Shown here: positions 4,509 to 7,211 of the stretch, piece by piece | Layout of the letters: every line of letters begins with the position of its first letter | Numbering within the stretch: position 1 is the stretch's first letter | Source: Streptococcus massiliensis DSM 18628 | Lineage (GTDB): Bacteria; Bacillota; Bacilli; Lactobacillales; Streptococcaceae | Assembly (NCBI RefSeq): GCF_000380065.1 | Contig: NZ_KB904398.1 | Span: 3,341 to 65,445, forward strand | Direction: 5' to 3' | DNA length: 62,105 nucleotides | Program-made: the position numbers and the translations under genes | Notes under the pieces: model-generated | The model's input: only the letters and a program-made list of their open reading frames with translations | The model's database searches: none | Told to the model about the DNA's origin: nothing

Positions 4509-4626
4509 AAAGGAATTGAACCCGAACGAAATGCTCGGAAAATAGATAAACCGCCTGGCATTCATCGAATGCTTCGTTGGTTCCCTAATTTTCAGTCGCA
4601 TTGTCGGCGTTCTTGGTATCATTATT
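4509..4626 (+). repeat. Structured leader repeat E, copy 1, before dnaK
   Basis: It begins with AAAGGAA (4509-4515) and ends at the dnaK start codon. Stems: P1 GAACCCGA (4518-4525) with TCGGCGTTC (4604-4612, one bulge); P2 GAAAATAG (4538-4545) with CTAATTTTC (4585-4593); P3 AACC / GGTT (4549-4552 / 4579-4582); P4 GCATTC-ATC-GAATGC (4558-4572). Two further copies before dnaJ keep these stems with different bases and keep the GATAA internal loop. No ribosome site lies within 20 bases of the dnaK ATG. Confidence 0.72.
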
Positions 4627-6459
4627 ATGTCTAAAATTATCGGTATTGACTTAGGTACAACAAACTCAGCAGTTGCAGTTCTTGAAGGAACTGAAAGCAA
4701 AATCATCGCAAACCCAGAAGGAAACCGCACAACTCCATCAGTAGTGTCATTCAAAAATGGCGAAATCATCGTTGGTGATGCTGCAAAACGTCAAGCAGTA
4801 ACAAACCCAGATACTGTTATCTCTATCAAATCTAAGATGGGGACTTCTGAAAAAGTTTCTGCAAACGGCAAAGAATACACTCCACAAGAAATTTCAGCGA
4901 TGATTCTTCAATACTTGAAGGGCTACGCTGAAGAATATCTTGGTGAAAAAGTAACTAAAGCAGTCATCACAGTTCCAGCTTACTTTAACGATGCGCAACG
5001 TCAAGCGACTAAAGACGCTGGTAAAATCGCTGGTCTTGAAGTAGAACGTATCGTTAACGAACCAACAGCAGCAGCCCTTGCTTACGGTTTGGACAAGACT
5101 GACAAAGAAGAAAAAATCTTGGTATTTGACCTTGGTGGTGGTACATTTGACGTATCTATCCTTGAATTGGGTGATGGTGTCTTCGATGTATTGGCAACTG
5201 CAGGAGACAACAAACTTGGTGGTGACGACTTTGACCAAAAGATTATCGACCACATGGTTGCAGAATTTAAGAAGGAAAATGGTATTGACTTGTCTACTGA
5301 CAAGATGGCTCTTCAACGTTTGAAAGATGCTGCTGAAAAAGCTAAGAAAGACCTTTCAGGTGTGACTTCAACTCAAATCAGCTTGCCATTCATCACAGCA
5401 GGAGCTACAGGACCTCTTCACTTGGAAATGACTCTGACTCGTGCCAAATTTGATGATTTGACTCGTGATCTTGTAGAACGTACAAAAACTCCAGTTCGTC
5501 AAGCCCTTTCTGATGCAGGCTTGAGCTTGTCAGAAATCGACGAAGTCATCCTTGTTGGTGGTTCAACTCGTATCCCAGCTGTTGTAGAAGCTGTTAAAGC
5601 TGAGACTGGTAAAGAACCAAACAAATCAGTTAACCCTGATGAAGTAGTTGCCATGGGTGCGGCTATCCAAGGTGGTGTCATCACTGGTGATGTCAAAGAC
5701 GTTGTTCTTCTTGACGTGACTCCATTGTCACTTGGTATCGAAACAATGGGTGGCGTATTCACAAAACTCATCGACCGCAACACTACTATTCCAACTTCTA
5801 AATCACAAGTCTTCTCTACAGCAGCAGACAACCAACCGGCCGTTGATATCCACGTTCTTCAAGGTGAACGCCCAATGGCAGCGGATAACAAGACACTTGG
5901 ACGTTTCCAATTGACAGATATCCCAGCTGCACCTCGTGGAATTCCTCAAATCGAAGTAACATTTGACATTGACAAGAACGGTATCGTGTCTGTTAAGGCC
6001 AAAGACCTTGGAACTCAAAAAGAACAAACAATTGTCATCCAATCTAACTCAGGTTTGACTGATGAAGAAATCGACCGCATGATGAAAGATGCAGAAGCAA
6101 ACGCTGAAGCAGATAAGAAACGTAAAGAAGAAGTAGACCTTCGTAACGAAGTAGACCAAGCTATCTTTGCAACTGAAAAGACTATCAAGGAAACTGAAGG
6201 CAAAGGCTTTGATGCAGAACGTGACGCTGCTCAAGCTGCTCTTGATGAACTTAAGAAAGCCCAAGAAGACAACAACTTGGACGATATGAAAGCCAAACTC
6301 GAAGCGCTCAACGAAAAAGCGCAAGCCCTTGCAGTCAAACTCTACGAGCAAGCAGCGGCAGCCCAACAAGCCCAAGCAGGTGCTGAAGGAACAAGCCAAG
6401 CAAATACAGGCGACAACAAAGGCGATGATGTCGTAGACGGTGAGTTTACGGAGAAGTAA
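4627..6459 (+). CDS. dnaK: Molecular chaperone DnaK (Hsp70)
   Basis: A 610-residue Hsp70. The ATPase domain shows [11 protein letters not shown] (residues 5-15), the phosphate-2 motif [12 protein letters not shown] and the adenosine motif [11 protein letters not shown]. Next come the linker [12 protein letters not shown], the substrate-binding domain and an alanine/glutamine-rich lid tail ending in [11 protein letters not shown]. It works with GrpE and DnaJ in folding. The start MSKIIGIDL is the conserved family start, so the ATG at 4627 is secure. Oddly, no Shine-Dalgarno sequence lies near it; the nearest AAAGGA is at 4509, across a folded repeat. It is regulated by HrcA through the upstream operon promoter. 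Confidence 0.98.
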
Positions 6460-6480
6460 ACTATAAGTCAGGAGGATTTA

Positions 6481-6825
6481 ATGAAAGTTGATGAATTAAT
6501 TGCCAAACTTGAGAAAAACTGTTTAGAAATCTACCGTAAGAATAATGAACAACAAATTTCTTTGTATTATTTGGATGATATCGTTGGTAATAAATTTTTA
6601 GAAATCTATTATAGTCAAGATGATGAAATTACAAGAGTAAAATTTCATACAGATACAGTCTTTCCAACATATTTAGAAGGTATCGAGGAAAACTCAGGTG
6701 ATGACGATTATTCTATAACACGACAAGTAAGGGCTGAGAATTACAGTAATGAAGACATTATTATGATTGCAGTTGCTAGCTATGACGCAGTAGAGAAAAA
6801 GTATCAGTTGAAGTATAAAAAATAA
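6481..6825 (+). CDS. Hypothetical protein inside the chaperone operon
   Basis: A 114-residue acidic soluble protein that I do not recognise. It has no signal peptide or membrane segment. The start at 6481 has a perfect CAGGAGG site 7 bases upstream. It follows dnaK by 21 bases and is closed by a terminator at 6873-6900, so it is probably cotranscribed with dnaK. An EISIYYL-like beta pattern and a tyrosine-rich C-terminus (YDAVEKKYQLKYKK) hint at a small mixed alpha/beta fold. Its codon use is more AT-rich than dnaK, which may indicate acquisition. It might be a small orphan immunity-type protein, but nothing proves that. Confidence 0.7.
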   Translation: MKVDELIAKLEKNCLEIYRKNNEQQISLYYLDDIVGNKFLEIYYSQDDEITRVKFHTDTVFPTYLEGIEENSGDDDYSITRQVRAENYSNEDIIMIAVASYDAVEKKYQLKYKK

Positions 6826-6872
6826 AAGAGTCATTTCAATTTAAATGGATTAATTAATACAAATTGGAAATC

Positions 6873-6900
6873 CAGAGGTTGCAACCCAGCCTCTGTTTTT
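6873..6900 (+). terminator. Terminator after the 114-residue protein gene
   Basis: Stem CAGAGG (6873-6878) with CCTCTG (6890-6895), an extended partly paired loop, then TTTTT. Confidence 0.8.
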
Positions 6901-6955
6901 CGGTGAAAAGGGATAGGACTTGAGTGGTTTGGGTTTTATCTCATCAATATAAAAG

Positions 6956-7076
6956 AAAGGAAATGAACCCGCCCTAAAAGCTCGGAAATTAGATAATTGT
7001 CTTGCTTTCATCGAAAGCTATATCGATTTCCTAAATTTCAGTCGTGGGTAGGAGCAGCTCTTTCTTAGAATTTACA
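6956..7076 (+). repeat. Structured leader repeat E, copy 2, dnaJ leader
   Basis: It begins AAAGGAA (6956-6962). Stems: P1 ACCCGC (6967-6972) with GTGGGT (7044-7049); P2 GAAATTAG (6985-6992) with CTAAATTTC (7031-7039); P3 AATTG (6995-6999) with CGATT (7024-7028); P4 GCTTTC-ATC-GAAAGC (7004-7018). The AGATAA internal loop is conserved. An extra pairing AAGAAAG (6953-6959) with CTTTCTT (7060-7066) would sequester the AAAGG. The copy is followed at once by copy 3. Confidence 0.68.
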
Positions 7077-7077
7077 G

Positions 7078-7211
7078 AAAGGAATACAGGTGTTCTCTGA
7101 AATGAACACAGGCTAAGCGCTGTGTAAAAAAGATAAATCGCCTAGTGCGCAAGCGCACATCGTTGATTTCCTATTTTTACTTTGCGCTTCACGCCTTTTG
7201 TATCTTACATT
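7078..7211 (+). repeat. Structured leader repeat E, copy 3, before dnaJ
   Basis: It begins AAAGGAA (7078-7084) and ends at the dnaJ start. Stems: outer ATACA / TGTAT (7084-7088 / 7199-7203); an added hairpin GTGTTC / GAACAC (7090-7095 / 7104-7109); P1 GGC-T-AAGCGC with GCGCTT-CAC-GCC; P2 GTAAAAAAG / CTATTTTTAC (7124-7132 / 7171-7180); P3 AATC / GATT; P4 GTGCGC / GCGCAC. When folded, AAAGGAA lies about 8 bases from the dnaJ ATG, a normal ribosome-site distance. Confidence 0.7.

Follow-up and report, generated by a model that had tools for sequence, protein, structure and literature searches.

Streptococcal hairpin repeats that probably lie inside split ribosome-binding sites of dnaK, dnaJ and other genes

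How might ribosomes reach the start codons of dnaK and dnaJ when a hairpin repeat of about 105 bases stands between each of them and a Shine-Dalgarno (SD) sequence? The question is raised by a stretch of 62,105 nucleotides (nt) from Streptococcus massiliensis DSM 18628 (contig NZ_KB904398.1, positions 3,341 to 65,445), called the window below, which carries three copies of such a repeat. Our preferred answer, to which we give a probability of roughly two in three, is that an interspersed hairpin repeat lies inside split ribosome-binding sites and that the hairpin bridges the distant SD and the AUG. The copies, the SD sequences and the two genes are all on the forward strand. For dnaK (4627..6459; Pfam HSP70, with an N-terminus conserved in the compared genomes) the SD, GAAAGGA at 4508..4514, is on the far, 5' side of copy 1 of the element, whose core TTGAAC...GGTATC spans 4516..4620 and scores 107.5 bits against the covariance model of the family. 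Its GG ends at 4513, 114 nt before the A of the start codon, which comes 6 nt past the copy, and a scan for SD words finds none between copy 1 and this AUG. For dnaJ (7212..8345; Pfam DnaJ domains, with orthologous starts in 54 genomes) the SD, GAAAGGA at 7077..7083, is likewise on the 5' side of copy 3 (core ATGAACACAGGC...TGTATC, 7102..7204, 91.9 bits), and its GG ends 130 nt before the A of the start codon, which comes 7 nt past the copy. A sequence-only reading of the window had noticed that the copies share AAAGGAA, an AGATAA internal loop and the stems P3 and P4, and all of these are present in the letters as it said. It overlooked that the shared AAAGGAA is the SD sequence, and that an AUG follows 6 and 7 nt past the element.

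The evidence that carries this answer is the position of the SD relative to the element and the AUG. We compared 239 distinct copies, which are 239 of 272 rows once duplicates and copies no more than 60 nt from a locus end were left out, two weak matches having been kept out of the collected copies. They are not a random sample, consisting of the copies of eight genomes together with best-match and named loci, and the orthologues among them are not independent. Sixty copies stand directly before an AUG that opens a reading frame of at least 80 codons, a convergent open frame has its stop codon no more than 14 nt from the end of another 29, and the other 150, many of them in tandem arrays, are found at neither kind of site. 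The earlier suggestion of a role in leaders thus holds for some copies only: they are often found before start codons, but just 60 of 239 abut one. An SD word was taken to be AAGG, AGGA, GGAG or GAGG, either in the 45 nt immediately 5' of the element or in the interval that separates it from the AUG. An AUG follows within 70 nt in 111 copies. Of the 60 with the AUG at 0-8 nt, 59 have an SD word 5' of the element and not one has it in the interval; of the 51 with the AUG at 16-63 nt, 31 of them from one gene family, 48 have the word in the interval and 2 have it 5' of the element. None of the 111 has its AUG at 9-15 nt. Counted by gene family, 17 of 18 near families have an SD word before the element vs 1 of 13 far ones. 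The sole near copy, and family, without a 5' SD (L116) has an in-frame upstream ATG and a misassigned start.

The same preference is seen when only the eight genomes are counted, where an SD word precedes the element in 44 of 45 start-site copies, 3 of 23 convergent-stop copies and 20 of 76 others. These 144 copies comprise 117 of 129 locus rows and 27 of 30 copies from the genome of the window itself; 5 overlap duplicates, 7 partial, weak or locus-end matches and 3 own-genome copies near contig ends were left out. Judging by sequence, the SD sits 5' of the element in about 17 gene families, either next to it or with another 20-30 nt in between, and the AUG follows the element at 0-8 nt. DnaK and DnaJ were recognized as start-site genes by Pfam. 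From their N-termini we take the others to include deoD, alaS, parC, purB, prmA, carA, carB, pdhC/acoC and proS, as well as prfA, uvrA, pheT, gatC, probably sufB, and a methyltransferase.

A second line of evidence is the comparison of leaders with and without the element. DnaK was searched in 59 genomes and, with two partial hits left out, 57 dnaK starts were compared, along with dnaJ starts in 54 genomes. The element is absent before dnaK in 49 of the 57, and each of these has an ordinary SD beside the AUG. The predicted pairing of the last 22 nt with the anti-SD averages -7.5 kcal/mol in the empty dnaK leaders, none of the 49 being weaker than -5.9, and is -2.8 in all 8 filled ones. GAAAGGA or GGAAAGG stands beyond the element in 8 of 8 filled leaders vs 0 of 49 empty ones. 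At dnaJ, where the 8 empty leaders were picked by eye, the mean anti-SD energy is -4.6 in these and -1.3 in the 46 filled leaders, and GAAAGGA occurs between -150 and -60 in 40 of the filled leaders and in none of the empty ones. The interior of the dnaK element is different in G010, G013, G015, G020 and G043 and shortened in G041, and leaders with an altered interior keep the SD, the GAAC..GTTC closing stem, UUGGUAUC and the AUG. Across three distinct interiors the SD, the closing stem and the distance to the AUG are all preserved. On the dnaK gene tree, presence of the element requires at least 6 changes, of which well supported branches force 4, and shows hardly any clustering (mean of 7.6 after shuffling, with 27 of 500 shuffles as low). 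Gain, loss or recombination is therefore frequent at this site.

The covariance model was built from 22 sequences, copies 1 and 3 included, and its common fold is a single long interrupted hairpin. From the base upward this consists of P0 (GA-ACX with X'GU-A-UC, containing a bulged A), P1a (GNNC/GNNC), P1b, P2, which carries another conserved bulged A, then an internal loop that is also conserved, and finally P3 and P4. In copy 1, whose structure is taken from the family alignment, P0 is formed by 4518-4522 and 4615-4620 (GAACC with GGTATC, bulged A), P1a by 4524-4527 and 4609-4612 (GAAC/GTTC), P1b by 4530-4534 and 4598-4602 (AATGC/GCATT), P2 by 4538-4545 and 4585-4593, P3 by 4549-4552 and 4579-4582, and P4 by 4558-4563 and 4567-4572. 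The P1 stem originally proposed has to be revised. Folded alone, copy 1 does prefer GAACCCGA/TCGGCGTTC at minimum energy, but the family alignment supports P0, P1a and P1b instead. The P1 assigned to copy 2 (ACCCGC/GTGGGT) is not homologous to that of the other copies. Copy 2 (6955..7060; SD-like GAAAGGA at 6955-6961, core 6963-7060, 46.6 bits) is decayed, without the conserved 3' end (GTATC), without the family's 3' P1 strand and with no start codon after it.

The proposal that this is a structured repeat family with covarying stems stands up well, since cells in which both partners have changed are far more numerous than in shuffled and slid controls. In the 22-sequence alignment, made with MAFFT and with the structure read from the same 22 sequences, 95.5% of paired cells can pair vs 78.7% after shuffling, and there are 124 double-change cells vs 36.6 shuffled and at most 32 slid. 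With 63 distinct sequences the double-change cells number 475 vs 120 shuffled and at most 123 slid; with 120 distinct sequences 95.8% of cells are paired and double changes reach 1036 vs 292 and at most 227, both of these larger alignments being fitted to the model and so biased towards it. The folding energy of single copies relative to shuffles is unremarkable for copy 1 (z of -0.56) and lower for copies 2 and 3 (-2.66 and -3.46).

Given this fold, the geometry of the start sites is what a bridge would require. Of the 60 start-site copies, 57 have bases that pair at -1/+1 on either side of the core (41 A-U, 11 U-A, 4 G-C and 1 G-U), and all 60 have them at -2/+2. Along the chain, the last G of the SD is 79-154 nt from the AUG, with a median of 130. 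In sampled predicted folds the shortest SD-AUG path has a median of 9 steps vs 16.5 when the intervening sequence is shuffled, and it is shorter than shuffled in 54 of 59 copies and equal in 3; for the dnaJ copy of the window it is 9 vs 15, a clearer gain than at dnaK. Where the SD lies within 9 nt of the core (23 copies), the nucleotides left on both sides total 6-9 in 18. Other copies have a longer 5' stretch, and in 11 of 22 it contains a run of at least 5 nt that is complementary to part of the core's first 12 nt (mean run 4.5 vs 3.1 shuffled; this count omitted copies with AUG offsets of 7-8). In copy 3 this takes the form of a 5' hairpin, GTGTTC TCTGAAAT GAACAC, at 7090..7109 on the forward strand between the dnaJ SD and the core. 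It competes with P0 for GAACA, and forcing P0 there costs 4.8 kcal/mol. On these folding predictions the bridge is probably made in two ways: the basal stem, or the 5' hairpin together with P1, would set SD and AUG at an ordinary spacing for the 30S subunit. The subunit would use the far SD, with initiation taking place across a closed, protruding hairpin. The need for a closed hairpin base would then preserve the element at start-site genes, and the copies elsewhere may be kept or spread by a process acting on DNA.

It had also been argued that compensating changes point to selection on RNA structure, and this can be kept only in part. In all site classes 93-97% of cells are Watson-Crick pairs, and wobble pairs are rare. 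The ratio of G-U to A-C is 45:24 at start sites, 6:10 at convergent stops and 66:71 elsewhere; since the two are equal outside start sites, covariation alone is no proof of RNA selection. The excess at start sites over the rest (45:24 vs 72:81) has a Fisher p of 0.014, with orthologues that are not independent. Pairwise comparison within orthologous start-site groups, again between pairs that are not independent, gives 306 compensated changes, 70 one-sided changes to G-U, 35 to A-C and 93 other. Selection on the sense RNA is thus modestly supported, and at start sites only; in the copies elsewhere the pairing looks like a feature of a DNA palindrome.

Several results weigh against a bridging hairpin. 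The excess of G-U is small, and one-sided changes within the deoD group run the opposite way, with 9 to A-C vs 2 to G-U. The predicted gain in path is modest for the dnaK copy of the window (11.5 vs 15 shuffled). Six of the 46 filled dnaJ leaders (G016, G021, G033, G037, G044 and G051) have no GAAAGGA within 150 nt; four or five of them have, by eye, an AAAGGA-like word further upstream, past an extra partial unit, and a single hairpin fails to explain these six. In principle the role of the SD could fall to the element's own GGUAUC, which pairs weakly with the anti-SD (-2.8, reaching -4.8 with GGGCUUGG). S. pneumoniae translates leaderless mRNAs, which are common there, and has a ribosome-binding site in 69% of its genes, according to the accessible part of PMC6212727. 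This last point also favors the view that the element is a plain DNA repeat, an intergenic palindrome whose neighboring genes initiate in a leaderless or SD-independent manner and whose covariation comes from DNA-level selection, spread of copies or palindrome correction. The equality of G-U and A-C in 179 of the 239 copies fits such a repeat, as do the tandem arrays and the near-identical dispersed units. We nevertheless consider it unlikely, as it does not account for the strict switch of SD position with AUG distance, nor for filled dnaK sites losing the near SD and gaining the far one. A leaderless start from the -10-like TATCTT at the element's end would, reasoning from the AUG offsets, place the start of the transcript inside the gene, and a promoter at the 3' end of the element was rejected on this misfit of spacing.

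Forcing P0 costs a median of 7.7 kcal/mol in copies with a long 5' stretch vs 1.8 in those without, and P0 is therefore not the favored base in the former. This too counts against a simple basal bridge, and it could instead point to a regulated leader, in which temperature, growth or a protein would decide between mutually exclusive folds (5' hairpin or P0), and hence how near the SD is to the AUG, placing housekeeping genes under shared control. The complementary runs in the 11 long-stretch copies and the conservation of the bulged A's and the internal loop agree with this. We think it a rather improbable explanation, however, because half of the long-stretch copies have no such run, 23 of 59 copies have no 5' stretch, the gene families are unrelated and the interiors are replaceable. 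A cis-regulatory RNA of known type, whether riboswitch, protein leader or thermometer, would suit the leader position and the conserved unpaired bases and yet seems to us very improbable: nothing in Rfam matches, a genome may hold up to 65 matches, the roughly 17 gene families are unrelated and form no single pathway as for a riboswitch, and the SD lies outside the consensus helices, not inside a helix as in an RNA thermometer. Three further candidates were set aside. An upstream mini-ORF (open reading frame) translated from the far SD would need the start-like codon at the core start, about 2 nt from the SD, which by eye is not family-wide; translational coupling at dnaK is opposed by the end of grpE about 380 nt upstream of dnaK; and the 5' hairpin as a general switch is present in only half of the examined copies.

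Where do the repeats come from? Dispersal, arrays, complementary ends and patchiness suggest that the family is probably non-autonomous and mobile now or formerly, and it should count against our account that this mobility is something we infer. It shares with miniature inverted-repeat transposable elements (MITEs) its complementary inverted ends (the -1/+1 and -2/+2 pairing), its lack of an open reading frame and its many dispersed copies. With a target-site duplication in mind, T/A at -3/+3 was counted; it is found in 8 of 27 convergent-stop, 45 of 134 other and 3 of 60 start-site copies. A tentative scenario, to which we give somewhat less than even odds, is that a mobile element entered between the SD and AUG of essential genes. 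Its hairpin of more than 100 nt would hide it from the ribosome, the host would come to depend on the fold, and the element would be locked in place with an interior that can still be swapped, as at dnaK. In one genome (G146; L312-L324, above all L322) near-identical units occur at separate places and in mosaic tandem arrays, which suggests recent spread or recombination of units. In several genomes, antisense copies (L143, L149, L170, L176, L169, L161 and others) occupy the same position next to a convergent gene, their 3' end about 5 nt from its stop codon; these genes are presumably rpsG, rpsN and rpsH. In the genome of the window, copies L138, L140 and L141 have other sequence inserted in their interior.

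The closest precedents for the geometry are T4 genes 38 and 25, where the accessible part of PMC3014915 describes RNA structure that bridges a split SD and AUG (22 to 5 nt and 27 to 11 nt, respectively), with mutational and probing support. As in those genes, the SD is too distant and intervening structure brings it near the AUG, here by prediction. Unlike them, the element spans 79-154 nt, is a repeat family, occurs at about 17 bacterial gene families and is known here from sequence and predicted folds; an SD beyond normal spacing with none beside the AUG is found in 59 of the 60 start-site copies. Among streptococcal small repeats the nearest are BOX, RUP and SPRITE, as far as the available text of PMC3049150 goes. 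According to the same text, BOX of S. pneumoniae and the BOX-type repeats RepSU1 and boxA-F of S. suis resemble the element in being small, structured, modular and interspersed, but the published range of BOX and the BOX-type repeats is S. pneumoniae, S. mitis and S. suis, and BOX is described as almost absent from other streptococci, whereas the element was found in 56 of 59 species. A relation to the boxE (115 nt) and boxF (133 nt) modules of S. suis (PMC3049150, in part) is possible. MITEs and repeats like repetitive extragenic palindromes (REP) or bacterial interspersed mosaic elements (BIME) are, from general knowledge and parts of PMC3049150, also short, dispersed and palindromic with complementary ends and arrays; the element differs in its longer conserved interior loops.

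No description of the element was found in the searched full-text literature, including the accessible parts of PMC3049150, PMC11109978, PMC8632094, PMC4448216, PMC2828477, PMC2267715, PMC6212727 and PMC3014915; most subscription journals and all supplements were outside this search, and the element may already be published. It may also be among the 250 mobile or repeat candidates from 50 genomes listed for PMC11109978. We regard the splitting of a ribosome-binding site by these repeats as new. If true, initiation over hairpins longer than 100 nt would be routine for bacterial ribosomes at housekeeping genes; a review describes this geometry for two T4 genes, whose structures are several times smaller (PMC3014915, in part). 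A repeat element and a translation signal would then be fused into one structure. Start-site predictors that scan only beside the AUG would miss SDs on the far side.

On this reading the leaders of dnaK and dnaJ, together with those recognized by N-terminus (alaS, parC, deoD, purB, prmA and others), would form a natural set for studying how 30S subunits load on split sites. Further copies elsewhere had been anticipated, and a search with the covariance model found the family in 56 of the 59 Streptococcus genomes sampled, with 2 to 65 matches per positive genome and 30 in the genome of the window at E up to 0.1. In Streptococcaceae, 156 of 196 genomes match at E up to 1e-4, among them weaker matches in five other genera. 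We take the weaker matches outside Streptococcus to be homologues, as they appear to carry the core GGAAAAWAGATAAA ... TTTCCTAWTTTTC and mostly also the ends TTGAG ... CATCTTA (8 genomes, by eye). In one of these genera (g9) the element stops just 5' of an ordinary SD and does not stand between SD and AUG. An exact pattern scan of a named genome collection gave 29 stretches, all Streptococcus, with a strict pattern that is uninformative on other genera. As the sequence-only reading had expected, Rfam holds no counterpart: the window and nine further loci gave no match to the element at gathering scores and none credible at relaxed thresholds. Between dnaK and dnaJ the window also contains a 114-codon open reading frame (6481-6825) with no Pfam match, and at 23244-23323 a Ribosomal protein L13 leader (RF00555) scores above its gathering threshold.

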